Positions 17,013 to 62,410 of a stretch of DNA of 64,000 nt are shown piece by piece; the first letter of the stretch is position 1; every line of letters starts with the position of its first letter. The notes under the pieces are model-generated. The model had not been told where the DNA came from, did no database searches, and saw nothing but the letters and a program-made list of their open reading frames with translations. The stretch comes from Parasphingorhabdus flavimaris (GTDB lineage: Bacteria; Pseudomonadota; Alphaproteobacteria; Sphingomonadales; Sphingomonadaceae), in contig NZ_JABWMH010000001.1 of NCBI RefSeq assembly GCF_013371215.1, forward strand, positions 248,001 through 312,000, read 5' to 3'. The position numbers were made by a program, and so were the translations under genes.

Positions 17013-17017
17013 GCAAT

Positions 17018-17524: not shown

Positions 17525-17537
17525 ACGGGGATCAACC

Positions 17538-18092: not shown

Positions 18093-18098
18093 CCGGCC

Positions 18099-19138: not shown

Positions 19139-19141
19139 TTA

Positions 19142-19168
19142 TTGTGCATTTGTGCTGCAATGCACAAA
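19142..19168. promoter_or_regulatory. Inverted repeat upstream of PII-amtB (candidate NtrC site)
   Basis: TTGTGCATT and AATGCACAA form a 9-bp inverted repeat with an 8-nt spacer; an overlapping repeat TTTGTGC-N6-GCACAAA also exists. It lies about 65-90 bp upstream of the sigma-54 promoter, where an enhancer-binding activator would act. The half-sites contain the GCAC core of NtrC sites but in non-standard arrangement, so the assignment is tentative. Confidence 0.5.
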
Positions 19169-19231
19169 AGTTACTCGTTTATGAACAGGCGCCTTTTGTA
19201 AAAATCCTTTGAATCCGGCACTTTGAGATTC

Positions 19232-19247
19232 TGGCACGCGCCTTGCG
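19232..19247 (+). promoter_or_regulatory. Sigma-54 (RpoN) promoter of the PII-amtB operon
   Basis: TGGCACG, 4 nt, TTGC matches the -24/-12 consensus TGGCAC-N5-TTGC exactly, with GG and GC 12 bp apart. Transcription should start near 19258, about 23 nt before the PII start codon. Confidence 0.88.
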
Positions 19248-19280
19248 ATGTGTTCCTATGCAACAACCATAGGGGGCGTA

Positions 19281-19619
19281 ATGAAATTTATCATAGCCAT
19301 AATCAAACCGTTCAAGCTCGACGATGTTCGTGAAGCTCTGACCGGTGTCGGTGTGTCCGGCATGACCGTAACCGAGGTCAAGGGCTTCGGTCGGCAGAAG
19401 GGCCAGACGGAAGTCTATCGCGGTGCTGAATATACCACGAACATGGTGCCGAAACTGAAAATCGAAGTGGCGTGCAGCAGCGCCGTCGCTGCCCAGGCGG
19501 TCGAGGCCATTCAAGCCGCTGCCGGGACGGAATCGATCGGCGACGGCAAGATCTTCACGATCGGTCTCGAAGGCGCCGTCCGCATTCGCACCGGCGAAAC
19601 CGGCGACACAGCAATTTAA
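19281..19619 (+). CDS. glnK: PII nitrogen regulatory protein
   Basis: A 112-aa trimeric signal protein that senses 2-oxoglutarate, ATP/ADP and glutamine status and gates AmtB. ATG 19281 with AGGGGG upstream gives the canonical start MKFIIAIIKPFKLDDVREAL. The T-loop contains GRQKGQTEVYRGAEY with Tyr51, the uridylylation site. The C-terminal signature GDGKIFTIGLEGAVRIRTGE is present. Position directly before amtB identifies it as GlnK-type rather than GlnB. Controlled by the sigma-54 promoter upstream. Confidence 0.96.
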   Translation: MKFIIAIIKPFKLDDVREALTGVGVSGMTVTEVKGFGRQKGQTEVYRGAEYTTNMVPKLKIEVACSSAVAAQAVEAIQAAAGTESIGDGKIFTIGLEGAVRIRTGETGDTAI

Positions 19620-19635
19620 TCGGGGAAGCATGATA

Positions 19636-20946
19636 ATGAGAAAATTTCTAACAATTTCCGCAGGGCTGGCGGTAATGGCTGCGGCCGCGCCCGCGCTGGC
19701 ACAGGAGGCGGCTGAAGTGGCCGACCCCAGTGCCAATACAGCCTATATCTTCAACACCCTGTTGTTCCTGCTTGGCGGGTTCCTCGTCATGTGGATGGCC
19801 GCCGGCTTCGCCATGCTCGAAGCCGGCCTGGTGCGTTCCAAGAACGTATCGATGCAATGTCTGAAGAATATCGGCCTCTATTCGATTGCCGGTATCATGT
19901 TCTGGGTCATCGGCTATTCGATTGCCTATCCGGGTTTCGAGGGCGGCTTCATCGGTATCGCCGACTTCCCCTATTCCATGCAGGGGGTTGGTGAAGCAGA
20001 TGTCGACACCGGCTATTCGGTGGCGTCAGACTGGTTCTTCCAGATGGTATTCTGCGCAACCACGGCGTCGATTGTTTCCGGCACCGTTGCAGAACGCGTG
20101 AAAGTCATTCCGTTCTTCATCTTCGTGTTCGTGCTGACCGGGTTCATCTATCCTGTCATCGTGAGCTGGGAATGGGGTGCAGGCTGGCTCGATGCCATGG
20201 GCTTCAGTGACTTTGCCGGTTCCACGCTGGTTCACTCGACAGGTGGCTGGGCGGCTCTCGCCGGTGCCTTGATCATCGGCCCCCGTCTGGGTCGCTATGT
20301 CGACGGCAAGATCACGGTCATGCCCGGTTCGAGCATCCCGCTCGCTACCCTGGGTACGTTCATCCTGTGGCTCGGCTGGTTCGGCTTCAACGGCGCATCG
20401 CAGCTTGCAATGGGCACGATCGGTGATGTCAGCGACGTTTCCAAGATCTTCGTGAACACCAACATGGCCGCAGCTGGCGGTGTGGTAGTCGCGATCGTCC
20501 TGACGCAGCTCATCTACAAGAAGATCGACGTCACGATGGCTCTCAACGGCGCATTGGCTGGCCTGGTCTCGATTACGGCAGAGCCGCTCACACCATCCGT
20601 ACCCTATGCCTTGCTTATTGGCGGTATCGGCGGTGCGATCGTGGTCTTCGCGGTTCCCATGCTCGACAAGCTGAAGATCGACGATGTTGTCGGCGCCATT
20701 CCGGTCCACCTTCTGGCCGGTATCTGGGGCACGCTGATCGTTCCTCTGACCAACACCGAAGTGCCGTTCACGGCGCAGCTGACCGGTGTTGTCGCAACCG
20801 GCGTGTTCGTGCTGGTCACCAGCTCGATCGTCTGGTTTGCTCTGAAATTCACCCTTGGTGTCCGTCCGACCGAAGAGCAGGAAATGCTCGGAATGGATAT
20901 CTCCGAAGTGGGCGTCGAAGCCTATCCGGAGTTTGCCAAAGGCTAA
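19636..20946 (+). CDS. amtB: Ammonium transporter AmtB
   Basis: A 436-aa inner-membrane channel for ammonium, with an N-terminal signal peptide (ending ALAQE) and about 11 transmembrane helices. Family signatures include WMAAGFAMLEAGLVRSKN, FQMVFCATTASIVSGTVAER, DFAGSTLVHSTGGWAALAGA and LGWFGFNGAS; the twin pore histidines are in VHSTGG and VHLLAG. GlnK binds its cytoplasmic face when nitrogen is ample. I prefer ATG 19636 over 19630 because GGGGAAG then sits at proper spacing. It lies 16 nt after glnK and is followed by a strong terminator. Confidence 0.96.
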   Translation: MRKFLTISAGLAVMAAAAPALAQEAAEVADPSANTAYIFNTLLFLLGGFLVMWMAAGFAMLEAGLVRSKNVSMQCLKNIGLYSIAGIMFWVIGYSIAYPGFEGGFIGIADFPYSMQGVGEADVDTGYSVASDWFFQMVFCATTASIVSGTVAERVKVIPFFIFVFVLTGFIYPVIVSWEWGAGWLDAMGFSDFAGSTLVHSTGGWAALAGALIIGPRLGRYVDGKITVMPGSSIPLATLGTFILWLGWFGFNGASQLAMGTIGDVSDVSKIFVNTNMAAAGGVVVAIVLTQLIYKKIDVTMALNGALAGLVSITAEPLTPSVPYALLIGGIGGAIVVFAVPMLDKLKIDDVVGAIPVHLLAGIWGTLIVPLTNTEVPFTAQLTGVVATGVFVLVTSSIVWFALKFTLGVRPTEEQEMLGMDISEVGVEAYPEFAKG

Positions 20947-47585: not shown

Positions 47586-47735
47586 GCCGACTGCTGTTGT
47601 TCATAAAAATACGCGTTAATATGAACCTGAGATAAAAGCACCATTCAGCCTCCGGTCAATGCGACTCCGCTAGAACTCCAATTGTTGGGCAGCAATTATA
47701 TCGGGTTTGGGAAAACCCGTTTTGGAGTAGAGAAT

Positions 47736-48140
47736 ATGATCAACAGGATTTTGGGAAGTTTGGCAATTTCGACCGCAGCCATTGCAACAATGGCCTTTGC
47801 AACCCCCGCCGAAGCGCGTGGCGGCTATTCAAACGGCGGTTATTACGAGCAGGCCCGCAATGACGGACGCCGTGTCTATCGGCGCGGTGATACCTATCGT
47901 GGCGACCGTTACCGTGATCGCCGTGATTATCGCGACCAGCGTCGCTATCGCGATAACCGCTATTCAAGCAACAGGCGTTATCGCGGTTGTGATCGCGGAA
48001 CCGGCGGAACGATTATCGGTGCAATAGCCGGCGGTCTGCTCGGTAATGAAGTTGCCGGGCGCGGCAGCAAGACCGAAGGGACGATCATTGGTGGTGCCGT
48101 CGGCGCCTTGGCTGGTCGCGCGATTGACGGCAACTGCTGA
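47736..48140 (+). CDS. Exported glycine-zipper 2TM protein
   Basis: A 134-aa protein with signal peptide (ending PAEARGG), an Arg/Tyr/Asp-rich repeat-like middle (GDRYRDRRDYRDQRRYRDN, about residues 50-75) and a glycine zipper at about 90-130 (GTIIGAIAGGLLGNEV, GTIIGGAVGALAGRAI). ATG 47736 has GGAG upstream. It has the same organisation as the gene at 43610; the two are related but not close duplicates. A stem-like GC-rich stretch near 48220 may end the transcript. Confidence 0.83.
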   Translation: MINRILGSLAISTAAIATMAFATPAEARGGYSNGGYYEQARNDGRRVYRRGDTYRGDRYRDRRDYRDQRRYRDNRYSSNRRYRGCDRGTGGTIIGAIAGGLLGNEVAGRGSKTEGTIIGGAVGALAGRAIDGNC

Positions 48141-48266: not shown

Positions 48267-51200
48267 TTACGGCCGGGCTAACAAAGGCGGCGCTGATCCG
48301 ATCCAGTCTGCCAGATCGGGCTCATCCTTGACGAAATAAGGTTCACCCTTGCTGTTCAGGTAGAAGCGTTGCATCTCGCTGCGGGTGAAAGGCCGGGAGC
48401 CCAGCCGCCCGAAGACCGCCATCTGTCCGCCGGTCTCGTCCACCGCTCGATCCCGATCAAGACCCTTGGACAGGGCCAGTGCCGGTTTCGGTGTCCGGGC
48501 AAAAGCGATCAGTTCCGGCTTCGGTGCAGGAGAAAAACCGTAGAAGTTTTTCTGACTATCCGGCGTAGTCAACTGGACCACCTTCAGCCCGTTGCGTCCA
48601 TCGGCGACATAGGCAAACAGAGTGGCATTGGTCGATCCGACTATCACATCCTCCGCATCGTTCATCGTGCCGCCGAACGTCTCTTTCATGTAGATCACGG
48701 GCGATTCCGGCCGGGTGATATTGGCGATTACCAGTCCTTCATCCTTGGCAGCAATATAGGCATAAGTGCGCGCTAGATAGAGGCGTTGGGCATTGCGCAA
48801 AGGGATTGTCCCTGAAGGCACTGCCACCGGATTTTCCATGTCGGTGACGTTGAACAATTTCACGCCCTCGGCATCGGTTACCCAGAGGTAGCGGAACTGC
48901 AATGCGGATGCCCGTGCATCGGTCAAGGGCAAGGTGACGACGTGGCGCGGTTCCAGCGGCTTGTCGAGATCGATCAGGGTCAGCCCGGCGTCCGTGGTGA
49001 TATAGGCATAATGACCGGCCAGCGTGATGTGGCGCGCACCGTCCAATAGACCCCCATCGTTCCAGGTAAGGCTGCGCTTGAAGAAATTGTTGCGGAATTC
49101 GCCATCGGCCAATGTGTTGACGTCCACGAGGATCAGGCCTTCTTCGCTATCTGTGATCACCGCATAATTGTAGATCGGGTGAAAGGCCTGCTCTTCGTTA
49201 ATTTCACGCAATTCCTTGGTGTTGCGCAGCGGAGCAATCGGCTGGTTGGTGGCAAGCGCCATGCAGGTCGCGTTCTTGGTGTCGACATGCGTATCATGAC
49301 CAAGCGAGGAGAAGGGCGCCTTGACGATCCGTTCCGAGAAGCCCTTGTTGCCGATCGAGGCAACATCATAGGCTCGGAACCCACCTTTGCCCTCTGCCAC
49401 AAACATATATTCGCCGCGCAGTTGCAGGCAGCGAACCGCGTCGCCGGTCCCCTGAACGACATTCTTGAATTCTTCGAGCGCCTTGGTTTCGCCGGACAGA
49501 TTCTCGTCGAGCCGTTCGCCGCGGACCCAGTCGATCAGTTCGCGGTCGTTGTCCTCGACATGCATCCGCCAGTAATCGGGATAGGCGTATTTTTGCAGAT
49601 AGGAGCCGATAACGGCCTGTGGTTCGTCCCACTCGGTTACCCGGACGGCTTCAAAGCCCTTTTCAAGGCCGACCCAGGCGTGGAGGCCGATGAAGTTGAC
49701 GAAATTAGTTCCCTGCAGCAGCGTCTGCGCCATGATCGCGTTATTGTCATTGGCCTCGCTGACGTGACAATCCGAGCATTGTTTGGTCTCTGTCTTGCGC
49801 ACGGTGTGCGGGAAATGCGGTGCAAAAGCTTGCGAAGAGAAACCGATACCGGAAATTGGTGGCTGCTGGACGTAGATGCGTTCGCGGTTGATGTTGGTCG
49901 AGGACAGGATCAGGGCCGAGGTTGACCGGACCGGAGCGATGATATTGCCCTTGGTTGTCTGGTGACGGCCCAGCTGGAACATCTGGTCGCGGGCCACTTG
50001 TGGGTTGTAGGTTGCATAGTTTCGCGTCGTGCCCCCTTCATATTTGTGATTGTCGGCCTGCCAGTTGGCTTCGATCGGCAAGTGGCAGCCACCGCAGCTT
50101 GTTGTCCAGCTGAGGTGGCAGGTGAAGCAGACCATATTCTCGTCTTTATGTGCCCGATCGTCTTTTGCAACGCCGCTTCCGAAGGAAAATTTGCCCGTTT
50201 CCGCTCCGCTTTTGGACATAAGTTTCGCCCGAGCCGCCTTGACGTTGAAATCGGGATGGGAGCGGTCGACGCTGTCCTTGACCAGGCTGACCCGCCAGCT
50301 GAGATCCGGGTCGACGATCGAACGCTGGACCAGCACGCGCTTGCCATTGGGATCTTCGAACCATTCGAAACGGCGCTCGCCATTGGCGTTGCGCAGCAGG
50401 CCGAGATTTTTGCCTTTTGGTCGCGCCGCGAGATTACTGGTCATCAGGTTAGGATAAGCGTCGGCAGTGCCGTGGCAGTCCTTGCAGCTGATCTCGACCG
50501 CATTGGCAACTTCGCCGTAGATCAACCCGTTGCCGTGACTGTCCTGCGAGAAATGACAATCGGCGCATTGCATGCCGACCTCGGCATGGATGCTCATCAT
50601 GTGGACAGATTTACCCGGATTCACGCCCGGTTCGACAAATTTTCCTTCACCGTCCTTGCGAAATTTTTCCGGATCGTCATTGGCGACGATATTCTCGGTA
50701 TCGGTGCTGTAGCTGGCCTGATTGCCCTCGGCGTCGAGCAGATTGCCGTCGCGGTCGCGTTTCAGAACCGCGCGGAAATTCCAGCCATGGCCGTGATAGT
50801 CGGCAAATTGCGTGTCCTTGGCGTCGGCGTTGACGTCGTAGACATTGCGCAGGAAATCGATGTCGGCCCACAGGCCCTTGGGCGCTGCGCCTTCCGGATT
50901 GCGGTCGAGCACCTTGCGTACTTCTTCGGCATCAGGATATTTCTGCTGCTTGTATTTCTTCTGATATTCCTCGTCGCTCATGCCTTCCGGCTTTGGTGTC
51001 TTGTTGTCCGGACCCGGCCACATGTAAGGCGCGTCGGATTCATAGTCCCACATCGTGTAGCCGAGATAGCTGTTCAGAAATATGTTCGGTTGGTGCATGT
51101 GGCAGTTCATGCATTGCGCGGTCGGGATGGCACGGGTGAACGCATGCTGGATCGGATGGCCTTTTTCGCGTTTGGCAGGATCGGTATCAACGGCGTGATC

Positions 51201-52430
51201 ATCGCCGTGGCCCGTATCACCGCCGTGGCCGTCCTTTGCACCGTGGGCCGCATCATAGGTGCCGAAGCTGCCAAAGCGATGTTCGCCCTCTTTCAGATTG
51301 CGGATCGTCGGATCAACCGTCTGCGTCTGTCCGTCACGGCCAAATTGGGCCCAGATCGAGCTGTGCCGCGGTTCGCGGTCATTGGCATAGACAACGTGGC
51401 AGCCGGCACAGCCAGACTGGCGATAGTCGCCAGGCTGGTCATTGGTGCCCATGAACCACATGAAGGGATCGTTGAGCCGGGTCTTGTGGATATTGAGAAC
51501 CGGGATGGCGACGCGCAGGCCGGTGCCGGGGCCGCGATTGGATTGCTTGAGGTCAGGCCTTCCGGGCTCTTCCAGCCGCTGGATGATGCCGCCGATATTG
51601 GGCAGTCCGATCTCCGGGAACTGGGTGTTGATGTTGCGGCCACCGCGCTCGAAAACCCGGAAGATGTCGCCTGGCGGGACGGTGTGCCAGGTCGGCAATG
51701 GATAGAGGATCGGCAGCGCGCCGCGTTTCTTTTCTGCCTCGGTTACGGTGCCGTGCGGATTGCCGGGTGATTTGATCGTCGCCGGCTCGCCCTTGCGGGT
51801 ATAAGCCTCGCCGAATATATAATTTTTGAAGGGCACGATGCCGTTATTATAAGCGGCTCCGCCCCATAGCATCGCGCCGGTTGCCATCAGCGACCGTTCC
51901 GAGGCCTCGATGATTTCCATATGGCAGGCACCACAGGATTCGCGCGCAACGCGATAGTCCGACGGATTGACGAAACGCACGAATTCGGGCGATTCCTTGT
52001 TGAGCAGGCCATAGCTGCGCTTGGGATTGGCAGAAGAGGGCCAGTGCCAGCTTTCCGGATATTTCGGCAGGACGTGCGCCTTGGTCAGTGCGTCCATATA
52101 GGCGAGGCTGTTCTTGCCCCATTTGTTGTCGCCCATGACCGAGGCATCGCCGCCGTGGCAGTCGACACAGCCGAGCACCACAGCAGGGGTCTCGTGCATG
52201 GTCTTCTGGTCGCTGTCGGTGTGACAGCTCTGGCAGCCGCTGCTCTTGGCCTGCGCCTCGTCCCAGGTCTGGTTCTGCGGGGCAGGGGGCGTGAAGCTGT
52301 AGTCGACCTTTTGCGCTTTTTCCTTGCCTGCGGCGAGCAGCAGCGAGGCAGGGGTGACGGTCAGCGCCAACGCGCCCAGTCCCGCGAGGATAAATTTGCT
52401 ATTACCGGTCAGGAGGTTCCGCCAGCGCAT
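48267..52430 (-). CDS. Decaheme c-type cytochrome fused to an LVIVD beta-propeller
   Basis: A 1387-aa exported protein. A signal peptide (about 1-35, no lipobox) is followed by ten CxxCH heme sites at about residues 66, 88, 166, 341, 440, 622, 649, 768, 779 and 885. A His/Asp-rich loop GHGGDTGHGDDH lies near 402-412. Residues ~1000-1320 form at least six LVIVD-type repeats (for example AVITDSEEGLILVDV, AYITTDAGLTLIDLD, LWVTDAEGVKLFNV, AYIAAKDEGLVIANI), a predicted beta-propeller. Its start shares one base with the barrel stop. It probably carries electrons at or beyond the outer membrane; the propeller may bind partner or substrate. Donor and acceptor are unknown. Confidence 0.93.
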   Translation of the reverse strand: MRWRNLLTGNSKFILAGLGALALTVTPASLLLAAGKEKAQKVDYSFTPPAPQNQTWDEAQAKSSGCQSCHTDSDQKTMHETPAVVLGCVDCHGGDASVMGDNKWGKNSLAYMDALTKAHVLPKYPESWHWPSSANPKRSYGLLNKESPEFVRFVNPSDYRVARESCGACHMEIIEASERSLMATGAMLWGGAAYNNGIVPFKNYIFGEAYTRKGEPATIKSPGNPHGTVTEAEKKRGALPILYPLPTWHTVPPGDIFRVFERGGRNINTQFPEIGLPNIGGIIQRLEEPGRPDLKQSNRGPGTGLRVAIPVLNIHKTRLNDPFMWFMGTNDQPGDYRQSGCAGCHVVYANDREPRHSSIWAQFGRDGQTQTVDPTIRNLKEGEHRFGSFGTYDAAHGAKDGHGGDTGHGDDHAVDTDPAKREKGHPIQHAFTRAIPTAQCMNCHMHQPNIFLNSYLGYTMWDYESDAPYMWPGPDNKTPKPEGMSDEEYQKKYKQQKYPDAEEVRKVLDRNPEGAAPKGLWADIDFLRNVYDVNADAKDTQFADYHGHGWNFRAVLKRDRDGNLLDAEGNQASYSTDTENIVANDDPEKFRKDGEGKFVEPGVNPGKSVHMMSIHAEVGMQCADCHFSQDSHGNGLIYGEVANAVEISCKDCHGTADAYPNLMTSNLAARPKGKNLGLLRNANGERRFEWFEDPNGKRVLVQRSIVDPDLSWRVSLVKDSVDRSHPDFNVKAARAKLMSKSGAETGKFSFGSGVAKDDRAHKDENMVCFTCHLSWTTSCGGCHLPIEANWQADNHKYEGGTTRNYATYNPQVARDQMFQLGRHQTTKGNIIAPVRSTSALILSSTNINRERIYVQQPPISGIGFSSQAFAPHFPHTVRKTETKQCSDCHVSEANDNNAIMAQTLLQGTNFVNFIGLHAWVGLEKGFEAVRVTEWDEPQAVIGSYLQKYAYPDYWRMHVEDNDRELIDWVRGERLDENLSGETKALEEFKNVVQGTGDAVRCLQLRGEYMFVAEGKGGFRAYDVASIGNKGFSERIVKAPFSSLGHDTHVDTKNATCMALATNQPIAPLRNTKELREINEEQAFHPIYNYAVITDSEEGLILVDVNTLADGEFRNNFFKRSLTWNDGGLLDGARHITLAGHYAYITTDAGLTLIDLDKPLEPRHVVTLPLTDARASALQFRYLWVTDAEGVKLFNVTDMENPVAVPSGTIPLRNAQRLYLARTYAYIAAKDEGLVIANITRPESPVIYMKETFGGTMNDAEDVIVGSTNATLFAYVADGRNGLKVVQLTTPDSQKNFYGFSPAPKPELIAFARTPKPALALSKGLDRDRAVDETGGQMAVFGRLGSRPFTRSEMQRFYLNSKGEPYFVKDEPDLADWIGSAPPLLARP

Positions 52431-54535
52431 CAGAAGGCCAATATCGCGTTGAGCAGAATGGAATAATGGAAGTCGCGCTTGTCGGTCTGGTCAAACAAAT
52501 CCTTGAATCCTTTTCCGGGTATCAAAGCAGCGCCCGAGAGGCGGAATACCATATTCTGCGTGGCTTTCGGGCGGTAAATGGCGGCTAGTGACAGGTCCCA
52601 GCCGATGTCTCTGGGAATCGAGCCCTCGACGCGCAGCGCTTCGAGACTTTCGGTCTTGTGGAACCAGAGATGGTTGGCATTGCCGGACAGCCGGAAATCG
52701 GGCGTCAGATCGGCGTCGACGCCAACGCCAGCCAATATCGTGCCGGGATTGTTGAAATTGCTCTGGCCCTGTTCCTTGGAAGAGCGCAGGCTGTTGAGAA
52801 TGCCGTTACGTCCATTGATCGAGATCACCCGACCACCGCCGGCGAACGGGATGGTCTGGCGGATCCAGTAGCTGGTATCGGCCCCGGCAAAAATCGGATT
52901 CTCGAAAATCGCGTCAAAGCCGGCTTCGGTGTTGTTGTAAGGATTGCCGTCGCCACTGGCGAACAGGCCGGAGGCGCGGAAACGCAGGAAGTCGACGTCG
53001 TAGCTGGCTTCCACTGCACCAAAATAGGCGGCGATATTGGCCGGCTCGCTGGTAAAGAAGCTGTTCCGGTCCTCGCCAAAGGCGCCGTAAACCTGACCGG
53101 TGAGATTGATCCGTCCGATCCGTCCGTCAAAGGCATAGCCCGGATAGACGACATCATAGGCCCGGCCCCTGAGGTCGCCGAGCAGGGCAGGGCGGACCGG
53201 AAAGCCGTTGTCGTCAATCTCGACGTCGGACTTTTCGCGGTTCATATTATAGGTCACGCTGAACTGGCTGGTCAGGCCGACAAAGGGCAGATCCTGCCGG
53301 TAGAGATTGGCGAAGAAAATATAGCTTTCGCGCGGGGTCTGGGTGATATCGTTGAGGCCGGAATTGGTGTCCTTCTCGAGCTGGACAAAGGCCCCCAGAT
53401 TATACTGGATCCGGTTGTTGTCACGGGTGCCGAACAGGCGGAAACCGAGCTGGTTGTCCTGGAACAGAAAACCGCGAAAATCCGCCTGCATCGGCTGGAT
53501 GCCGATGCGGAAACTGTCGAAGTCATAGCGCGCCGACGTGTTGCGGATGTGATAGTCGAAAAACGCCTCCTGCACGCCGACAAACCAGTCGGTGCGATGC
53601 GAGGATTTGGACGGTTCGACAAACAGCACGCGGCGTTCCGGGACATTCACATGATTGACCTGGGTCGCCAGCGTCAGGCGATATTCCACGTCGGGCGGCT
53701 TATAGGCGGTAGAGCCCTTGATCAGGGCAAAACCGGTGATGAAGGTCTGGGCATAGACCTCCGAGCCGGAGCGGCCGAAGACGTCGATGCTGTTCGGTCG
53801 TTCGGTGGTCTGGACGCCAACCGGAATGGGAAAGCTGCGTGGCTCGATCACCGTGTCCGAAATTGCATTGGCGACGAAAAACCAGTCGTCGCCCTTGAGA
53901 AAGCCCGGTTTCTTGTCAGCCGGGATCGGCTTGTCGCCCTTGAGCACGTTCTGGTTATAGGGATTGAGCGTGCTGTGGCAGTTGTTCCGCAGGGCGCCGA
54001 ACAAGGTGTAAATCGCCTGGTCGCCACCCTTGGCCGGGCAGAGGCTTTGCATGATCCGCCATCGGTCGGGAACCGGGAATTCGTCGGTCGGAAAAGCTTC
54101 CGGTGGCGGGGCGTTGACGGCGCCGGGGTTGTTCTGGGTCACTCGATCCGGCAACTCTTTCTGGACACCCGGGCGGCGGCGGCCATCGATCAGGGCATCA
54201 TCGGCAGCGAGACCGTCAAAGTCCATTTCCAGCTGATCGGGGGTTCCGGATTGCTCCAAAATGGAAGAATTGGAAGCATCTTTCGGAGTCGACGGCCCGG
54301 ACGCAGAGGCCTCTCCAAATTCCGCCTCTTCTTCGTCGGGATCGGGGCCACCCATGGCCAATTGTGTACCAAAAGCGTCAGATTCTGTTCTTATCCAGTC
54401 AAATCGTTCCCCTGCGAGCAGAGCGGTCAGGGAGGATTCCATCTGCTCGACCGAGGCGCGCTGGGTCTCCATCTGTTCGGCCTGGCCGGACAGGACCGCC
54501 ATGATCGGGACAAAGGAGGCAGAAAGTCCGGTCAT
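52430..54535 (-). CDS. Outer-membrane beta-barrel protein of the cytochrome operon
   Basis: A 701-aa protein without heme motifs. A weak N-terminal hydrophobic segment may be the signal peptide. Residues ~30-180 are polar and acidic. The rest shows alternating aromatic strands typical of a barrel (for example FFDYHIRNTSARYDFDSF, RIGRINLTGQVYGAFG, LRFRASGLFASGDGNPYN) and it ends in a terminal Phe (NAILAF). I choose ATG 54535, 5 nt after the HbpS lipoprotein stop; the TTG at 54598 would overlap. By position it could be the porin sheath that holds the decaheme cytochrome, as in MtrAB-type conduits, but there is no recognisable homology to MtrB. Confidence 0.8.
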   Translation of the reverse strand: MTGLSASFVPIMAVLSGQAEQMETQRASVEQMESSLTALLAGERFDWIRTESDAFGTQLAMGGPDPDEEEAEFGEASASGPSTPKDASNSSILEQSGTPDQLEMDFDGLAADDALIDGRRRPGVQKELPDRVTQNNPGAVNAPPPEAFPTDEFPVPDRWRIMQSLCPAKGGDQAIYTLFGALRNNCHSTLNPYNQNVLKGDKPIPADKKPGFLKGDDWFFVANAISDTVIEPRSFPIPVGVQTTERPNSIDVFGRSGSEVYAQTFITGFALIKGSTAYKPPDVEYRLTLATQVNHVNVPERRVLFVEPSKSSHRTDWFVGVQEAFFDYHIRNTSARYDFDSFRIGIQPMQADFRGFLFQDNQLGFRLFGTRDNNRIQYNLGAFVQLEKDTNSGLNDITQTPRESYIFFANLYRQDLPFVGLTSQFSVTYNMNREKSDVEIDDNGFPVRPALLGDLRGRAYDVVYPGYAFDGRIGRINLTGQVYGAFGEDRNSFFTSEPANIAAYFGAVEASYDVDFLRFRASGLFASGDGNPYNNTEAGFDAIFENPIFAGADTSYWIRQTIPFAGGGRVISINGRNGILNSLRSSKEQGQSNFNNPGTILAGVGVDADLTPDFRLSGNANHLWFHKTESLEALRVEGSIPRDIGWDLSLAAIYRPKATQNMVFRLSGAALIPGKGFKDLFDQTDKRDFHYSILLNAILAF

Positions 54536-54540
54536 CGGTT

Positions 54541-56535
54541 CTACAGACCCTCGCAGACATTTTGTGCGTCGGTGTCGAGAAATGGCGCGAACGGACAACT
54601 GACGTAACGCAACCGGACATTGGCATTGCCGAGATCGACCACGATATTGTCGGCCCGTATCGCCTTTGGCGCATTGCCGATACTGCCAACACGCTGTCCG
54701 GCGTTGTGCAGTCCCAGAAAGCTGATCATGTCATCCTGATCGATACCGTCACCGGAAACACCAAGACCGCCGATCAATTGATTGCCGCGATAAATTGGTA
54801 CGCTGCCTGGAAATATCTGGATGCCGTTTTCCAACCGGTTCTGTCCTGGCACCGCGTCGGGCGTGTTGGTGCACCGCATGGGCGTGTCCATCGGGGCCGC
54901 GCCGGTAACAAAGGCGAGATGCTGTCCGAGATTGGGAAAGATCAATGCTGCCTGCAGCCCGGTTGCAAAGGGGTTGAAATCTTCAATCGGGCGCGACAAC
55001 GGCCCGTGGGGTCGACCCAGTTCGCCATCCGGGAAATAGGGGCGGGAGAGATTGCCGCCAGAGCGGTCGGCAAAGGCGACCGTGCCGGTAAGGGCATTGG
55101 GATCATTCAGAAAAGTCCGGACCCGTCCTACAAATGCGGCGACATCCGTATCGGGATTGCCGAGCAGGTCGGATGCGGCGACGCTATTGGAAAAAAAGGA
55201 TGCTGTCCGCGCTTTTTGCAGGGATACGTCGGTCCCGAATATCGGCGCATCGGGCGACCGGACTATGCCCAGTATCTCGCCGTGGGTATCGACGATCGAG
55301 ATGGATACTTGCGCGCGGCTGTCGAGCGGTTGCCGGATTTGCGCGCGCGCACGCGACATGATGATGAACGCTTCTTCCAGTATCGCGCGGGTCTCGGCGG
55401 CGGTCAGTGGCGTCGTTACGCTCGCGCCGTCGGTTGCGCCGCGAATCGGGAAGCGATTGGTGCCCGCGCCATCGGACAAGACGAATGCGTCGCGGTTCTT
55501 GAATTCCGTCGCGGTGGAGGAGCGAATGCCGGATGCCTCGGTGCCATAAGCCGAGCCGGCGATGATAACATTGGCAGCATAGCCTTTCACCGCAATCAAA
55601 TTGCCGGCAGTGCCGCTAATCGCCGCATAATTGCTTTGCAGAGGCGCGAGGTCGCTGACCACAACATCGCTGAATCGAAGCTGTGTTCCATCTACCGAAA
55701 TCCGGTTGGCGGTCACCGCGGCCGGTGGTGCAAACCCCTGAATCCCCGCCAGCGCAATCGCTTCCTCGTCATCGTCATCGATATCGAGAATATTTGGGTC
55801 AAAGCCATAGTCACCGTCACCCATCACGCCGATGGCACCGACAACAACGCCGTTTTTGTAAAGGGGCAAGCCGCCGGGATCGGCAGACAGGCCGAGAGGA
55901 GAGCGTTTGGGCCCGATCAGCGCCGCCGTGCCGACGTTACCAAATCTCTGGTTGAAATCGGAGCAGGGCAACTGGCTGAACTGCACGCCGAACAAGGGGC
56001 CGCTTTCCAGGCCCGCCGTGGTCGGAGCTGGCGGAAAATGTTCCTGGACGATCTGGCTCGCCGTCCGGCTGGAAAAGGCATTGCCGGCGCTCGACAGATA
56101 GGCGCCGGTCACCGCTTTTGCGATGGCGCCTGCGGCGGCTGGCACCTCGACGCCCTGGACATCGACCAGAGGATTGTTGATGGCACCCAGTGCAGTGCGT
56201 GCGCTGGTGGTCGCGGTCGGCCTTGCGCCGTTCATTTCAAACACCGCCAGCACGTTGCCGACCCTGTCCGTCACCGCGATTACGGAGGGCAGGTTGCGGG
56301 CGGTGGCTTCGCCGACGGCCTGCGCAATGATGGTCTGCACGTCTGTAACGGTGAGCGATTCCTGTGCGGGGGCCGTATAAGCGCCGCCATTGCCGTCAAC
56401 CGGGGACGGGGTGGGTGTCGGGGATGGCGAGGGCGACGGTGTGCCGCCGAAATCATTGCTGCCGCCATCACCACCGCAAGATGTCAGCAGCAGTGCTGCG
56501 GCAGAAATTGCAGAGGTCAGAAAGGTCTTGCGCAT
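54541..56535 (-). CDS. Lipoprotein with HbpS/GlcG-like heme-binding domains
   Basis: A 664-aa lipoprotein. The signal peptide ends in a lipobox (LLLTSC, Cys about residue 20), followed by a Gly and Ser/Pro/Thr linker. Two HbpS/GlcG-like modules follow: module 1 from SLTVTDVQTIIAQAVGEA to GGLPLYKNGVVVGAIGVMGDG (about 60-250) and module 2 from LTAAETRAILEEAFIIMSRARA to GSVPIYRGNQLIGGLGVSGDG (about 375-620). HbpS-type domains bind heme or cobalamin and sense redox state. ATG 56535 with AGAGGA upstream is preferred over TTG 56541. It is 11 nt after the penta-heme cytochrome and 5 nt before the barrel. Confidence 0.85.
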   Translation of the reverse strand: MRKTFLTSAISAAALLLTSCGGDGGSNDFGGTPSPSPSPTPTPSPVDGNGGAYTAPAQESLTVTDVQTIIAQAVGEATARNLPSVIAVTDRVGNVLAVFEMNGARPTATTSARTALGAINNPLVDVQGVEVPAAAGAIAKAVTGAYLSSAGNAFSSRTASQIVQEHFPPAPTTAGLESGPLFGVQFSQLPCSDFNQRFGNVGTAALIGPKRSPLGLSADPGGLPLYKNGVVVGAIGVMGDGDYGFDPNILDIDDDDEEAIALAGIQGFAPPAAVTANRISVDGTQLRFSDVVVSDLAPLQSNYAAISGTAGNLIAVKGYAANVIIAGSAYGTEASGIRSSTATEFKNRDAFVLSDGAGTNRFPIRGATDGASVTTPLTAAETRAILEEAFIIMSRARAQIRQPLDSRAQVSISIVDTHGEILGIVRSPDAPIFGTDVSLQKARTASFFSNSVAASDLLGNPDTDVAAFVGRVRTFLNDPNALTGTVAFADRSGGNLSRPYFPDGELGRPHGPLSRPIEDFNPFATGLQAALIFPNLGQHLAFVTGAAPMDTPMRCTNTPDAVPGQNRLENGIQIFPGSVPIYRGNQLIGGLGVSGDGIDQDDMISFLGLHNAGQRVGSIGNAPKAIRADNIVVDLGNANVRLRYVSCPFAPFLDTDAQNVCEGL

Positions 56536-56546
56536 CACCAAATCCT

Positions 56547-57953
56547 CTAGCGCAGCGACCGGATCGTGCGCACGGCGCTACCCAATGCGCGGCGATATTT
56601 CAGCGGTTCATAGCTATTGGGTTCATCGACAGCGGCATAAGCGATGTTGATCTGGCCGCGCAGGCTGGCGGCGGCGGATTCGCTGACCTGGCCGCTGTTG
56701 ACCAGTCCGTTGAGCAAAGTGTCCACGGCCATGACCGCCTGTACGCTGCCTTCATAGTCGGTGAAACGCGGCGATATGGCCTGACCGGCGATGGTTTCCA
56801 TGATCTGGAACGTCTGATCGCGACCGAAGCTGGCGCGGGAGAAACGGTCCGCGAGCTGGCCGGCATATTGCCGCAATCTGGCCGCCTCCTGTACGGCGGG
56901 TTCCCGGCCTTGCGCCATTGCTGCGTGGAAGGCTTTAGACCGGGCGTCGAAATCAGCAGCAATGTCTGGCGCGGCGACTTTGATCGCGGCGCTGAGCATG
57001 ATCATATTTTCATCATTATAGGGCGGCATGCCTTCGGGAATCGGGCGGCCGGGATTGTTGACCGACGTCGGGCGGGCCGACGGGTCATCATAAATCCGGC
57101 GGTGACAGCTGTGGCAGTCGTAGAAATAGAATTCGGGGAAAATGCCCTCGGTGGCGATTGCCGGTTTGGTGAACAGGTTGAGCGAGCGTTCGAGCGCCAT
57201 CGCCTGACCTACCGCCCAGAACTGGACGCTGTTGGTCCGGCCCTTGCGGCGGATATAGTCGACATCCTCGTCATGATGTTGTTGCAGGGTGGAGAAGAGG
57301 TCCATCTCGAAGGAAATGCGCGGATGACCGGCAGCCATGATCTTGTGATCGACAAACTGGCCTTTTTTGGCGCTGCCGAAATGACAGTCGAGACAGACGC
57401 TGGCGCGGGCCTTGGGATTGTCGAGCGGGATCAGGCCCCGGGCAACATTGCGGGCGTGGCTGGCGCCGACCGCATAATGGCTTGAAATCCAGCCGGATGA
57501 TGCACCGTGGCAGGATTCGCACCCGACGCCGTCATTGGTCTGGAAGCGCGGGCCCTTGCGCGCCGCGTCGGTGGTGTGGCAACCGAGGCATTCGGAGGCG
57601 GATGCCGCATCCTTGAGGCCGAGACGCTTGGCAATCGCAATGCTGCGTGGTTCGCGGAGGACGCGGAAAGCGCGGCTGTGGGCGCCACCGGGGGTCGACT
57701 CTTCCTGCCAGCGCATGATCTCGTCCTGCCGGACAATCGCGCCATCGGCTTCCTGTCGTCCGTGGCAAGTGGTGGCACCGCAAGAAGCCACACCGAGGTA
57801 GGTGCCACTGGCAAGGTCGGTGGCTGCTTCAACCGGGGCAGTGCTGGCCATGGTCGAGACGAACAAGGCCGCTCCGACCAGTGACGAGCAGAAAAGGCTA
57901 GCGGCCAGTACCGGCCAGCTAGGTATTCCTGATATTATCTTCCCCATTTGCAT
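56547..57953 (-). CDS. Multiheme c554-like cytochrome c (five predicted hemes)
   Basis: A 468-aa exported cytochrome with a signal peptide (about 1-45, ending VEAAT). Heme sites: an unusual CGATTCH (C-x4-CH) at 58-64, then CLGCH 122, CESCH 145, CLDCH 187 and CHSCH 280. The first site sits where cytochrome c554-type proteins have their CxxCH (SCG..CH followed by a W..S..H pattern), so it is likely a genuine heme site. The C-terminal ~170 residues are helical without heme. It would be a periplasmic electron carrier, first gene of the operon. Start ATG 57953 or 57947. Confidence 0.9.
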   Translation of the reverse strand: MQMGKIISGIPSWPVLAASLFCSSLVGAALFVSTMASTAPVEAATDLASGTYLGVASCGATTCHGRQEADGAIVRQDEIMRWQEESTPGGAHSRAFRVLREPRSIAIAKRLGLKDAASASECLGCHTTDAARKGPRFQTNDGVGCESCHGASSGWISSHYAVGASHARNVARGLIPLDNPKARASVCLDCHFGSAKKGQFVDHKIMAAGHPRISFEMDLFSTLQQHHDEDVDYIRRKGRTNSVQFWAVGQAMALERSLNLFTKPAIATEGIFPEFYFYDCHSCHRRIYDDPSARPTSVNNPGRPIPEGMPPYNDENMIMLSAAIKVAAPDIAADFDARSKAFHAAMAQGREPAVQEAARLRQYAGQLADRFSRASFGRDQTFQIMETIAGQAISPRFTDYEGSVQAVMAVDTLLNGLVNSGQVSESAAASLRGQINIAYAAVDEPNSYEPLKYRRALGSAVRTIRSLR

Positions 57954-58215: not shown

Positions 58216-59655
58216 CTAGCCCGGCTTGCGCCGGATCACCAGATTGCGGATTTCGGTCATGTCTTCCATCGCGAATCTGATGCCCTCGCGGCCCAGGCCG
58301 CTGTCCTTGACGCCACCATAAGGCATGTTGTCGACGCGATAGGATGGCACGTCGTTGATCACGACGCCGCCGACATCAAGCCGGTCCCACGCATCCAGCG
58401 TCTTGAAAATATCGCGGGTGAAGATGCCGGCCTGCAGCCCGAACTTGCTGTCGTTGACCTCGTCCAAGGCGGCGCCGAAATCGCTGAATTTGGAGAGCAG
58501 GGCGAGCGGACCGAAGGCTTCCTCGCGATAGGCGTCGGCGCTGGTGTCGACATTTTCCAAGAGCGTCGCCTCCAGCATGTTGCCCTTGCGATTGCCGCCA
58601 CATAGCAAAGTCGCTCCACCGGCGACGGCGCTCTCGATCCAGCCGTGCAGGCGGCTGGCTTCGCCTTCGGAAATCATCGGGCCGATAAATGTGTCGCGAT
58701 TCTTCGGATCCCCGGAGACCAGCGTCCTGGTCCTGGCGACCAGCATGTCCCTGAAAGTGTCGTAGATTTTTTCGTGGATGATGATCCGCTGGACGCCGAT
58801 GCAGCTCTGGCCCGACTGGTAGAAGGCGCCAAAGACAATCCGTTCGAGCGCGTCGTCAAGATCGGCGTCATGATCGACCACCACGGCGGCATTGCCGCCC
58901 AGTTCCAGTATCACCGGCTTTTTGCCGGCCTTGGCTTTCAGATCCCAGCCGACACCGGGCGAGCCGGTAAAGGAGAGCAGCTTCAGCCGCTCGTCGGTGG
59001 TGAATAGATCGGCGCCGTCCCGGCTCGCGGGCAAAATCGAGAAGGCGCCTTTCGGCAGATCGGTTTCTGCCAGTACCTCGCCCATGATGATCGCACCCAG
59101 CGGTGTCTTGCTGGCCGGTTTCATCACGAACGGACAGCCCGCGGCAATCGCCGGAGCGACTTTATGGGCAGCGAGGTTGAGCGGGAAATTGAACGGGGAA
59201 ATGAAGCTGCATGGCCCGATCGGCACGCGTTTCCACATGCCCATATAGCCCTTGGCACGCGCCGAGATATCGAGCGGCTGCACTTCGCCGTAGTTGCGGA
59301 CGGATTCTTCTGCAGCGATCCGGAATGTATCGATCAGTCGTCCGACTTCGCCTTCCGCATCCTTGATCGGTTTGCCCGCTTCGACGCACAGCGAATAGGC
59401 GAGCTCGTCATAGCGTTCCTTGAACCGGTCGACGCAATGCTGCAGCACGTTCTGCCGCTCGTAACTGGCCATCGCGGCCATCGGTTCCGTGGCAGATACC
59501 GCCCCCGCGATCGCTTCGTCAATGACATCGGGTGTCGCCAACGCCGTCCGGAAAGCCACTTCATTGGTATATTTGTCGGTGACTTCCAGGTCGGTATTGG
59601 GCTGCACCGCTTCATTGTTGAGATAGAGCGGATAGACGTCTTTCAATTTGGTCAT
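58216..59655 (-). CDS. Aldehyde dehydrogenase family protein
   Basis: A 479-aa NAD(P)-dependent aldehyde dehydrogenase. The catalytic Cys is in FYQSGQSCIGVQRI (about residue 281), the Glu in VILELGGNAAVV, and the cofactor loop SFTGSPGVGWDLKAKAG is typical. Substrate not identifiable. ATG 59655 lies 11 nt after the acetolactate-synthase-like gene, so they form an operon; a TTG at 59670 would overlap it. The pair suggests that a carbonyl product of the first enzyme is oxidised here (inference). Confidence 0.94.
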   Translation of the reverse strand: MTKLKDVYPLYLNNEAVQPNTDLEVTDKYTNEVAFRTALATPDVIDEAIAGAVSATEPMAAMASYERQNVLQHCVDRFKERYDELAYSLCVEAGKPIKDAEGEVGRLIDTFRIAAEESVRNYGEVQPLDISARAKGYMGMWKRVPIGPCSFISPFNFPLNLAAHKVAPAIAAGCPFVMKPASKTPLGAIIMGEVLAETDLPKGAFSILPASRDGADLFTTDERLKLLSFTGSPGVGWDLKAKAGKKPVILELGGNAAVVVDHDADLDDALERIVFGAFYQSGQSCIGVQRIIIHEKIYDTFRDMLVARTRTLVSGDPKNRDTFIGPMISEGEASRLHGWIESAVAGGATLLCGGNRKGNMLEATLLENVDTSADAYREEAFGPLALLSKFSDFGAALDEVNDSKFGLQAGIFTRDIFKTLDAWDRLDVGGVVINDVPSYRVDNMPYGGVKDSGLGREGIRFAMEDMTEIRNLVIRRKPG

Positions 59656-59666
59656 AAATGTCTCGT

Positions 59667-61313
59667 TCAAACCTTCGCGCTGAGTTCCTTGATCTCGTTG
59701 TTCAAAATGCGATCATTGTCGGAATAGTCGACCGGGACCTCGATCAGATGCACGCCTTCGCTGTTCAGGCATTTGTCGATCGTTTCCTGAAGATCTTTCG
59801 CGCTGGTGATCCGGTAGCCATTGGCACCATAAGCCTCTGCATATTTGACAAAATCGGGGTTTCCATAAGTCAGGCCCCAATCCTTGAAGCCCATATTCGC
59901 CTGTTTCCAACGGATCATGCCGTAGCTGTTGTCGTTGAGAACCAGCACGGTGATGTTGAGCTTTAACCGTACAGCGGTTTCCATTTCCTGGCTGTTCATC
60001 ATGAAGCCGCCGTCGCCGCAGATCGCCATGACCTTGCGGTCGGGGTAGACCATCGCCGATGCCATGGCCGATGGCAGTCCGGCGCCCATCGTCGCCAGCG
60101 CATTGTCGAGCAATACGGTATTCGCCTGGCGCGCCTTGTAATTGCGGGCGAACCAGATTTTATAGACGCCATTGTCGAGGCAGATGATTCCGTCAGCCGG
60201 CATCGCTTCGCGGACGACCTTGACGAGATGCGGTGGATAGATCGGGCAACGGACATCGTCGTCCATCGAATCCGTATGCTCTTCCTCGGCCCGGCGCGCC
60301 TTGTACATCGCGTCGAAATTCCAGCTGCCGGACGGAACAATATCTTCCTTCATCTGCCAGATCGCGTTGCCGATATCGCCGATCACCTCGATCTGCGGGA
60401 AATAGACCGGATCCACTTCGGCGCTGTTCATCGAGACGTGGATGACTTCGGTGCTGCCGGTGGCCATGAAGAAGGGCGGCTTTTCGATCACGTCATGGCC
60501 GACATTGATGATCAGGTCGGCGGATTCGATCGCGCGGTGGACAAAGTCGTTTGCCGACAGCGCCGCGCAGCCCATGAATTCCTTGTGGGTTTCATCGACC
60601 ACGCCCTTGCCGAGCTGGGTGGTGACGAAGGGAATACCGGTCTTCTCGATAAATTGCGTCAGCATGCGCCCGGTCGTGGTCCGGTTGGCGCCGCCGCCGA
60701 CGACGATGATCGGGGATTTGGCGTTTTCGATTTTCTTGGTCGCGGCGCGCACGGCCTTGGCTTCGGCGATGGGCCGCCGGGCGAGGCTGGGAGTGATCGG
60801 CGTCGAATCCGTGTCTTCGTCGGCGATATCCTCGGGAAATTCGATATGGGTCGCGCCGGGCTTTTCTTCTTCAGCCAGCCGGATCGCTTCGCGCACGCGG
60901 CTCGGGATATTGTCGGCCGACGCAAGTTGATGGGTGAATTTGGTGATCGGGCCCATCATGTCGACGACGTCGAGAATCTGGAAACGACCCTGTTTGGATT
61001 TCTTGATCGGCTTTTGCCCGGTGACCATCAGGATCGGCATTCCGCCCAATTGCGCATAGGCCGCTGCCGTCACCAGATTGGTCGCGCCGGGTCCGAGCGT
61101 TGCCATGCAGACGCCGGTCTTGCCGGTATGGCGGCCGTAGGTTGCAGCCATGAAACCGGCGCCCTGTTCGTGCCGGGTGAGAATGAGTTTGATTTTCTTG
61201 GAGCGCGACAGGCTGTCGAGCATGTCGAGATTTTCTTCGCCGGGAACGCCGAACAGATATTCAACGCCTTCGTTCTCGAGACATTCTACGAACAGATCGG
61301 ATGCTTTGGTCAT
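59667..61313 (-). CDS. Thiamine-diphosphate enzyme, acetolactate synthase large-subunit type
   Basis: A 548-aa ThDP enzyme. The catalytic Glu is in FGVPGEENLD (residue ~25), the ThDP-binding motif in CGDGGFMMNSQEMETAV then VLVLNDNSYG (about 420-455). It lacks a neighbouring small regulatory subunit, unlike biosynthetic IlvB/IlvH, and pairs instead with an aldehyde dehydrogenase. This gene pair is recurrent in proteobacteria and its role is not settled. ATG 61313 gives the canonical MTKASDLFVECLENEGV start; the open frame to 61373 is not needed. Confidence 0.92.
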   Translation of the reverse strand: MTKASDLFVECLENEGVEYLFGVPGEENLDMLDSLSRSKKIKLILTRHEQGAGFMAATYGRHTGKTGVCMATLGPGATNLVTAAAYAQLGGMPILMVTGQKPIKKSKQGRFQILDVVDMMGPITKFTHQLASADNIPSRVREAIRLAEEEKPGATHIEFPEDIADEDTDSTPITPSLARRPIAEAKAVRAATKKIENAKSPIIVVGGGANRTTTGRMLTQFIEKTGIPFVTTQLGKGVVDETHKEFMGCAALSANDFVHRAIESADLIINVGHDVIEKPPFFMATGSTEVIHVSMNSAEVDPVYFPQIEVIGDIGNAIWQMKEDIVPSGSWNFDAMYKARRAEEEHTDSMDDDVRCPIYPPHLVKVVREAMPADGIICLDNGVYKIWFARNYKARQANTVLLDNALATMGAGLPSAMASAMVYPDRKVMAICGDGGFMMNSQEMETAVRLKLNITVLVLNDNSYGMIRWKQANMGFKDWGLTYGNPDFVKYAEAYGANGYRITSAKDLQETIDKCLNSEGVHLIEVPVDYSDNDRILNNEIKELSAKV

Positions 61314-61459
61314 GTGGGTCCTTCCCTGGCCGCGATGACCAGCTGGTGTGCGAGTAAATGGCAACGACCCCAATGACCCTCAATCCCCCTCAGGAACGAG
61401 ACTCACTCTACCCCTATGTAACTGGATGGTAAGTTAAAAAACTCGGGAAGTCACCCCCT

Positions 61460-62410
61460 TCAATATCCCCGGTCGAAGTCGGCGACAGCGATCATCTCTT
61501 CGCCATTCCGGTAGCGTTCCAGATTTTTGACAAACCGGGCTGCGGCACGCTGGAACATCAGGGTTTGTGCCTGACCGGACAAATGCATGGTGATGATGCA
61601 ATTGGGCGCGTCCCAAAGCTGGTGGTCCGACGGCAGGGGCTCGGGATCGGCAACGTCGAGAGCGGCGCCGCCGATGGTCTTGTCGTTCAGCGCCGTGATC
61701 AGCGCGTCCTGATCGACCAGCGAGCCGCGCGCGATATTGACCAGCCAGGCGGAGGATTTCATCGCGGCAAATTCATCCGCGCCGAACATATGCTTCGTGT
61801 CGCTGGTCGCCGGAGCGGACACAAAGACCCAGTCAAATTCTCCGAGCCGGTCGCGCCACTCGTCAAGGCCGATGACATTGGGCTCGCCGGTCGCGGTCCG
61901 GCGTACAGCGGTAATCTCGACATCAAATCCGGACAGCTTTTTCGCAATCTGCTGGCCGATACCGCCAAAGCCGATGATCAGCGCCTTGCTGCCGTCGATC
62001 TCGGTTGTTCCCGGTGGTAGTTCGAGCCAGTTATGCTGCCGCTGGTTGTCGTTGATAATATCGCTGCGCTTGGCGGCGGCGAGCATCATCATGATCGCGA
62101 ATTCCGCGATCGGGGCGCTGTTCAGACCGGCGCCATTGGTCAGGATCGTGCCCTGGGACTTGAGCTGCTCGAGCGGAAAATGCTCGACGCCGGCGTAGAT
62201 GCTGTTGAGCCATTTGAGATTGGTTGCGGTTGCAATAATCTCGCCCATCTTGTCCTTGTCATACATGTCGAACCAGCCGATCTCGACATGCGGCGCGATC
62301 GCCATCGCTTCTTCGGTGCTGGTGAACCAGGTCACGTCAAGATCGCCGCAATGCGGTTCGACAAGCGGGCGAACAAGAGAGGCCATCGCGGCTTTCGGCT
62401 TGGTGGTCAT
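61460..62410 (-). CDS. D-2-hydroxyacid dehydrogenase
   Basis: A 316-aa NAD(P)H-dependent dehydrogenase of the D-isomer-specific 2-hydroxyacid family, which reduces 2-oxoacids. The Rossmann motif is GFGGIGQQIAKKL (about 148-160), the catalytic Arg in NIARGSLVDQDAL, the Glu/Asp in DPEPLPSDHQLW, and the His in MHLSG. Substrate unknown. It is on the same strand as the acetolactate-synthase-like gene, 146 nt upstream of it, so it may share regulation with that operon. Confidence 0.92.
   Translation of the reverse strand: MTTKPKAAMASLVRPLVEPHCGDLDVTWFTSTEEAMAIAPHVEIGWFDMYDKDKMGEIIATATNLKWLNSIYAGVEHFPLEQLKSQGTILTNGAGLNSAPIAEFAIMMMLAAAKRSDIINDNQRQHNWLELPPGTTEIDGSKALIIGFGGIGQQIAKKLSGFDVEITAVRRTATGEPNVIGLDEWRDRLGEFDWVFVSAPATSDTKHMFGADEFAAMKSSAWLVNIARGSLVDQDALITALNDKTIGGAALDVADPEPLPSDHQLWDAPNCIITMHLSGQAQTLMFQRAAARFVKNLERYRNGEEMIAVADFDRGY

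Follow-up and report, generated by a model that had tools for sequence, protein, structure and literature searches.

The window analysed here is a 64,000-nucleotide stretch of the Parasphingorhabdus flavimaris genome (contig NZ_JABWMH010000001.1, positions 248,001 to 312,000). Its reverse strand carries, at 48267-57953, an operon of four genes, encoding a pentaheme cytochrome, an HbpS/GlcG-domain protein, an outer-membrane β-barrel and a decaheme cytochrome with a β-propeller-type tail, which belong to a widely conserved and apparently undescribed pathway that probably carries electrons from the cell interior to the outer membrane. The four genes follow each other at distances of 11 nt and 5 nt and with a 1-nt overlap, in agreement with an initial annotation made from the sequence alone, which had proposed that they may form an independent electron conduit, or an extracellular oxidoreductase, with about 15 hemes. 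The genes and their parts are:

56547-57953, minus strand: pentaheme c-type cytochrome (four CXXCH and one CX4CH), cytochrome c554-like, with a signal-peptide-like N terminus; 468 aa
54541-56535, minus strand: HbpS/GlcG-domain protein with lipobox LTSC; ATG start, 664 aa
52430-54535, minus strand: outer-membrane β-barrel with 18 predicted strands and an AlgE/OprD-like fold; ATG start, 701 aa
52436-53884, minus strand: barrel domain proper, as predicted in the structure model (residues 140-622)
52742-52957, minus strand: longest predicted barrel loop in the structure model (residues 449-520), on the long-loop side
48267-52430, minus strand: decaheme cytochrome with C-terminal LVIVD (β-propeller-type) repeats and a signal-peptide-like start; 1387 aa
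49764-52235, minus strand: ten-heme region of the decaheme cytochrome, from its CXXCH positions (residues 66-889)
48696-48797, minus strand: best LVIVD repeat of the decaheme cytochrome by Pfam (residues 1212-1245)

Ten CXXCH motifs in the decaheme cytochrome and four in the pentaheme, together with the CX4CH of the latter, make up the expected total of 15. The CX4CH is very probably a fifth heme site, because its Cys and His are invariant in 28/28 aligned rows (90 pentaheme loci were found and 28 rows aligned, the window's among them); the other four heme motifs and 6 further His are invariant in the same rows. The pentaheme matches the Pfam family Cytochrome_C554 (1.7e-10), and among PDB sequences cytochrome c554 (1bvb, E 1.3e-7) alone matches it at E 0.01. 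The decaheme, which has no PDB sequence match at the same threshold, ends in a region matching Pfam LVIVD (6.6e-13), has exactly ten CXXCH in all 23 loci compared, the window's own copy included, and holds 13 further invariant His besides the heme motifs in 38 rows. In a complete genome of the same genus (G022, L037:5547-9805) it is spread over two overlapping frames, broken or misread. The motif is absent from the HbpS-domain protein (Pfam HbpS-like, 1e-25) and from the barrel, and among the stop-to-stop open reading frames of more than 90 aa in the window no other has more than one CXXCH. The domain content, the HbpS-domain lipoprotein and the heme-free barrel are thus as initially described.

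The barrel has no Pfam match up to E 0.1 and no PDB sequence match up to E 1, and is labelled "hypothetical protein" in 13/13 plasmid records. Its AF2 model predicts 18 strands, joined by turns 2-9 residues long and loops 7-72 residues long, in line with the earlier view of it as a true outer-membrane barrel, and resembles, by fold comparison, the likewise 18-stranded AlgE and OprD/Occ substrate channels, at an identity of 8-14%. All 68 barrel rows end in an aromatic residue, and in a test with controls of both kinds, negative and positive, 300 shuffles of the barrel region reached its strand-like alternation 2, 8, 4 and 8 times at the four thresholds set. A count of strands at threshold 2 was undiscriminating (40 vs 37.7 ± 3.1), whereas this stricter barrel-region test did discriminate. 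The longest loop, with 21 of its 72 residues invariant in the 68 rows against 102 of 623 overall, is a candidate docking site. The one CXXCH among these rows lies upstream of the likely start.

Gene order was read in three sets of loci: named loci (the best 80 of at least 592 relatives, found through the decaheme and titled as sphingomonads or more broadly), of which 65 extend at least 6.5 kb upstream and 66 at least 8 kb downstream; 12 near loci from the genus or family, selected through the barrel; and 20 distant loci, 19 of them with enough sequence. The order pentaheme, HbpS, barrel, decaheme is kept in 64/65 named and 12/12 near loci and so is not due to chance; in the one exception (L128), the barrel and decaheme stand alone, and genes for the pentaheme and the HbpS-domain protein were not found beside them. 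That the barrel travels with the cytochromes, on which the initial annotation had staked its proposal, was borne out further afield, as the HbpS-barrel-decaheme run recurs in these same loci and in 19/19 distant ones. Searches of a plasmid collection with barrel and decaheme match the same 13 sphingomonad records; among the carriers, the large plasmids pMSHV of Sphingobium herbicidovorans and pMC4 of Sphingopyxis indica (L021, L022) are both typed conjugative.

The four genes have a partner. Two Sphingobium plasmids hold them in window order adjoining a divergent module, which encodes a flavoprotein with two cNMP domains and 4Fe-4S motifs, a cytochrome b561-like protein, a second decaheme cytochrome of FHA type and a metallophosphoesterase; in a Sphingopyxis plasmid, which has the four genes, the module was not seen within the 29.7 kb read. 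The window genome carries it as a second operon on another contig, C5 (L047 = G000:C5), in the order flavoprotein, cytochrome b, FHA-decaheme (C5:52839-54644), phosphoesterase, with a CcmH/CycH-like TPR gene adjoining on the opposite strand. Pfam matches over cut-off are Pyr_redox, cNMP_binding (twice), 4Fe-4S and FHA, and the cytochrome b561 match of the cytochrome b is under it (20.3 vs 30.1 bits). Of the 66 named loci, 45 carry the module downstream and the other 21 are without it there; the phosphodiesterase-like gene is present in 45/45 of the module-bearing loci and the CcmH/CycH-like maturation gene in 44/45 (45-bit threshold, presence in the locus).

The cofactor motifs of this module are strongly conserved. 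All 52 complete flavoprotein sequences share 16 Cys, arranged in four groups of ferredoxin type, and both cNMP domains have Glu and Arg, in 51-52 of 52, at what we take, from CRP, to be the pocket positions. The flavoprotein shares its three kinds of domain with thioredoxin-reductase-like flavoproteins, CRP-type domains and DmsB/FdhB-type ferredoxins, but differs from these in that the three are fused, next to a di-heme-type cytochrome b and the FHA-decaheme; we know of no described example of such a fusion beside such cytochromes, and a search of an open-licence PMC library found no paper on one. In the cytochrome b, two pairs of His, each 14 residues apart (105/119 and 278/292), are conserved in 70/71 sequences, as is His129, and the pairs show the pattern expected of a cytochrome b with two hemes, to which they may be assigned. 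The FHA-decaheme has one hydrophobic segment before its ten CXXCH and 10 invariant His beyond them in 8/8 rows (five sphingomonads and three distant lineages); an assignment to HmcA of sulfate respiration was dropped at 41 bits against a cut-off of 400. As judged from the alignments, the additional invariant His of both decahemes and of the pentaheme suit bis-His electron-transfer hemes.

In the distant loci the two gene sets are joined. The FHA-decaheme precedes the HbpS gene in 18/19, and flavoprotein, cytochrome b and FHA-decaheme form one collinear six-gene run with HbpS, barrel and decaheme in 17/19; with L206, the stretch that follows it, L182 makes an 18th, and L181 is without the module in the stretches read. 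Small open reading frames without a Pfam match lie between the FHA-decaheme and HbpS genes in some of these lineages (L165:15289-15786, L177:16418-16867, L180:15511-16167). One distant locus, in G1045, is outside the class, with a barrel 50% identical to that of the window; its collinear system (L183, L198, L199) may mean transfer between classes. In a tree of the decaheme (96 of 112 rows, 16 of unknown arrangement being excluded; midpoint-rooted for drawing only), the rows from the distant lineages have collinear operons, as does one Porphyrobacter bin; in most sphingomonads the two sets are divergent neighbours; and the copies are split in the clade of the window, in Blastomonas and Sphingopyxis, in two Croceicoccus and in a few isolated rows.

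Among 298 genomes of the family, the decaheme occurs in 119 and the FHA-decaheme in 118: both are found in 118, neither in 179, the FHA-decaheme without the decaheme in none, and the decaheme without its partner in a single genome that is 67% complete. Their co-occurrence outlasts physical separation, because just 59 of the 118 double carriers have the two within 15 kb; in 23 they are farther apart on one contig and in 36 on different contigs, some of these maybe owing to assembly breaks. In another set of 60 relatives, the barrel occurs in 32 and the FHA-decaheme in 33, with mismatches confined to three genomes that are 80-87% complete. The decaheme is found in 111/278 good-quality genomes of the family and in 42 of the 96 genera sampled there, with Sphingobium, Novosphingobium, Erythrobacter and Sphingopyxis among the carriers that have names. 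More broadly, it occurs in 30/385 genomes of the class (three in the family, with one weak match, 8e-11, and one fragment) and in 11/398 of the phylum (eight in the family, two in other parts of the class and one outside it).

From the genes, their cofactor motifs, their conserved order and their co-occurrence we infer a route for electrons, with its direction, its gating and its acceptor. NAD(P)H would reduce the FAD domain of the cytoplasmic flavoprotein, from which electrons would pass through four [4Fe-4S] clusters to the two-heme cytochrome b in the inner membrane and on to the ten hemes of the FHA-domain cytochrome, which would face the periplasm. This would hand them, directly or via the pentaheme, to an outer-membrane assembly of the 18-strand barrel, the HbpS-domain protein and the decaheme with its propeller, and the assembly would pass them to an extracellular acceptor. 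On balance, and with some reserve, we favour the four genes as the outer half of such a dedicated pathway from the cytoplasm through the outer membrane to that acceptor. The originally proposed conduit thus stands in that barrel and cytochromes are linked, but not as an independent four-gene unit, as its chain starts, in the cytoplasm, at a flavo/iron-sulfur protein of NAD(P)H type, followed by a cytochrome b. Electron flow may, in addition, be opened or closed by a cyclic nucleotide, as suggested by the two cNMP domains of the flavoprotein and the phosphodiesterase-like gene of the same operon. The cofactors also suggest that the quinone pool would be bypassed; if so, the pathway would be an outlet for redox balancing or extracellular reduction and not an energy-conserving respiration.

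The closest known systems include MtrCAB of Shewanella, PioAB and MtoAB, the first two of which the initial annotation had named and with which the operon shares a barrel next to multiheme cytochromes and a proposed passage of electrons across the outer membrane. The barrel, which the initial annotation had already set apart from MtrB, has no detectable relation to it (hhalign probability 0.1%, E 0.64), and the window genome has no match to the MtrB/PioB family PF11854 at E 0.001; MtrAB is not among the 50 fold matches listed for the barrel by Foldseek, which pre-selects, so that this is no evidence. The decaheme, unlike cytochromes of MtrCAB, has 1387 aa and a propeller-type tail; it narrowly misses the MtrC/OmcA-type model PF22113 (29.8 bits, cut-off 30, residues 64-174 only), and the pentaheme falls far below the DmsE/MtrA-type TIGR03508 (20.1 vs 192.2 bits). 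The electron input of MtrCAB is the quinol oxidase CymA, whereas here it would be an NAD(P)H-type flavoprotein.

That conduits can be built from unrelated families is illustrated by the Geobacter systems OmbB-OmaB-OmcB, ExtABCD and ExtHIJKL, of which ExtB has 18 predicted membrane segments and ExtHIJKL is described as being without an outer-membrane cytochrome (PMC6148476). In most Geobacter Omc/Ext conduits the surface lipoproteins are cytochromes, in contrast to the lipoprotein of the window, which is of HbpS type and without c heme. The decaheme scores 65.3 bits against the ExtM model NF040943 (cut-off 800), and a selenite/tellurite reductase was dropped as a candidate, the cut-offs of the Ext models being missed. 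Cyc2, a single fused porin-cytochrome protein (PMC10654088), is likewise an outer-membrane barrel in electron transfer, but the barrel of the window has no fused heme motif. AlgE and OprD/Occ share its predicted fold, but the barrel of the window stands beside cytochromes in the loci read. The system thus belongs neither to MtrCAB/PioAB nor to Cyc2, does not reach the Ext cut-offs, and may work like a conduit outside all of these families. Of the three elements by which an outer-membrane electron conduit has been defined (PMC6148476), a periplasmic multiheme cytochrome is present in the pentaheme and the FHA-decaheme, as localised from sequence, and an integral β-sheet protein is predicted in the barrel by its 18-strand model, C-terminal aromatic residue and alternation; for the redox lipoprotein, the candidate is the HbpS-domain protein, with putative heme binding.

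Several points weigh against the pathway as drawn, above all at the step across the outer membrane, which is its weakest because the decaheme has a plain signal-peptide-like start without a lipobox, its model failed (AF2, residues 36-995: mean pLDDT 45.3, pTM 0.37) and the barrel is narrower than MtrB, with 18 strands instead of the 26 (PMC7198977) of a barrel that encloses a decaheme. The MtrCAB picture is for these reasons of strand number and lipobox not simply transferable. The HbpS-domain protein looks like a lipoprotein in sphingomonads only: by a crude pattern the lipobox is found in 83/101 homologues, and of 15 listed among the 18 misses, 12 are from distant lineages with an ordinary signal-peptide-like start. 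In 17/19 distant loci, moreover, the pentaheme lies elsewhere or was not seen in the stretches that were fetched, the four-gene order that includes it being kept in just two. The window genome does have a type II secretin over cut-off, which makes surface export possible.

At the inner membrane, di-heme b cytochromes often react with quinones and that of the window genome could do so itself; for this reason, and because the absence of annotated oxidase and proton-pump genes was seen in three plasmid stretches only (other loci being searched for the known gene set), we infer the quinone bypass rather than observe it. The donor, on sequence grounds, is left as NAD(P)H. The phosphodiesterase-like protein is under the cut-offs of its nearest models (SpdA, 140.9 against 400 bits; CpdA, 88.1 against 225 bits), and the co-occurrence counts are not independent of phylogeny, so that no p-value is claimed for them. 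Promoter motifs give hints only, and we draw no conclusion from them: measured against mononucleotide shuffles, with related loci that are not independent, FNR-like sites with two mismatches occur in 12/52 flavoprotein regions (17/260 shuffled), a hint, and in 10/89 pentaheme regions (39/445), and CRP-like sites in five pentaheme regions with one mismatch (2/445 shuffled with 0-1) and in 15/89 with up to two (61/445). No FNR-like site with 0-1 mismatch was found in the 89 pentaheme or 52 flavoprotein upstream regions, nor a CtrA-like site in the upstream regions searched.

With the outer-membrane step as the weakest point, about a quarter of the weight stays with a periplasmic reductase that has its own porin, where the barrel would admit a small acceptor, e.g., an anionic aromatic or an oxyanion, and the decaheme with its propeller would reduce it at the expense of the same NAD(P)H chain, with no exit of electrons. 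This would agree with the resemblance of the barrel to substrate channels, with the plain start of the decaheme and with the HbpS proteins of distant lineages, which are not lipoprotein-like. Against it, the extra invariant His, which suffice for every heme, fit bis-His electron transfer, one catalytic site still being compatible with them, and contact with a surface is suggested by genes for giant exported or adhesin-type proteins that lie close to some of the loci, a linkage observed without a control set.

Electrons might also enter the cell, from an extracellular donor such as Fe(II) oxidised outside, in the direction in which porin-cytochrome pairs of the Pio/Mto type run (PMC6831781, PMC12016527). 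We consider this improbable: at its inside end the chain has a flavoprotein of NAD(P)H type, and transfer of electrons from a high-potential donor to NAD(P)+, against an inside-negative membrane potential, would be unfavourable on general bioenergetic grounds, which favours outward flow; nor is an oxidase gene annotated in the three plasmid stretches. Slightly less probable still is a role in heme handling or oxidative stress, with a heme-binding HbpS-type protein and the cytochromes as accessory peroxidases, which has for it the HbpS-like domain, the maturation gene nearby and an upstream TpsB gene annotated "heme:hemopexin-binding protein" in one Sphingobium plasmid, but whose need is far exceeded by a chain of 10 + 10 + 5 hemes with NAD(P)H-type input; the annotations of the three plasmid stretches, moreover, include no TonB-type heme receptor.

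In the window genome, a cassette with an adhesin-type gene is found some 6 to 24 kb upstream from the operon, just beyond the window (L034, G000:C1:310000-329999, at 2035-19879, minus strand), and encodes a CHAT protein, a CHASE2-cyclase, a small exported protein, a TpsB and a 3308-aa TpsA-like protein. Loci of Sphingobium and of Erythrobacter type also have parts of such a cassette next to the operon. With the N-terminal part of TpsA, TpsB, the small exported protein, CHASE2-cyclase and CHAT as queries, at least one matches in 28/65 named or plasmid loci, 1/12 near-relative and 0/5 distant ones, some matches being just 25-29% identical and a few lying downstream; the count of 28 is low, as a shorter TpsA query missed several TpsA matches. 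Further matches were found in wider stretches of G954, G659 and G1045, the last of which has TPR, FecR and cadherin-type genes immediately downstream of its pentaheme gene and, at a greater distance, a CHASE2 match. The cassette hints at surface attachment and cyclic-nucleotide production; its linkage may be coincidence. Downstream of the system, one distant locus has a T2SSE/MshEN gene, for an MSHA-pilus-type ATPase (L180:2273-4147). Within the window itself, the operon is preceded on the same strand by genes for an aldehyde dehydrogenase, a thiamine-diphosphate enzyme and a 2-hydroxyacid dehydrogenase (58216-62410, minus strand), and its end is convergent with a gene for a glycine-zipper protein (47730-48140, plus strand; Rick_17kDa_Anti match).

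The view that sphingomonads are not known for such systems held up in searches of an open-licence PMC library, preprints excluded, which found none described. No sphingomonad is named in the main text of a survey that covered about 60,000 genomes independently of homology, although its supplementary lists may hold the locus (PMC11475568). As a tentative proposal, which we think possible but would not put higher, the system may be a cyclic-nucleotide-gated outlet that delivers electrons from NAD(P)H directly to the cell surface, without passage through quinones, with its own maturation factor and signalling enzymes and, in several lineages, a linked giant adhesin, and may thus represent a third architecture beside the Mtr/Pio and Geobacter conduits, in widespread aerobic Alphaproteobacteria. 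Carriers of the system are common water and soil bacteria that are generally treated as aerobes; if electrons do flow outward, these organisms would own a system for extracellular reduction, with a bearing on iron and humic redox chemistry. The genes would then be candidates for two older observations, the mediator-dependent reduction of azo dyes reportedly carried out by sphingomonad strain BN6 and the extracellular superoxide that marine alphaproteobacteria are said to produce, and extracellular electron transfer would be controlled in a new way, through cyclic-nucleotide domains built into the inner-membrane input.

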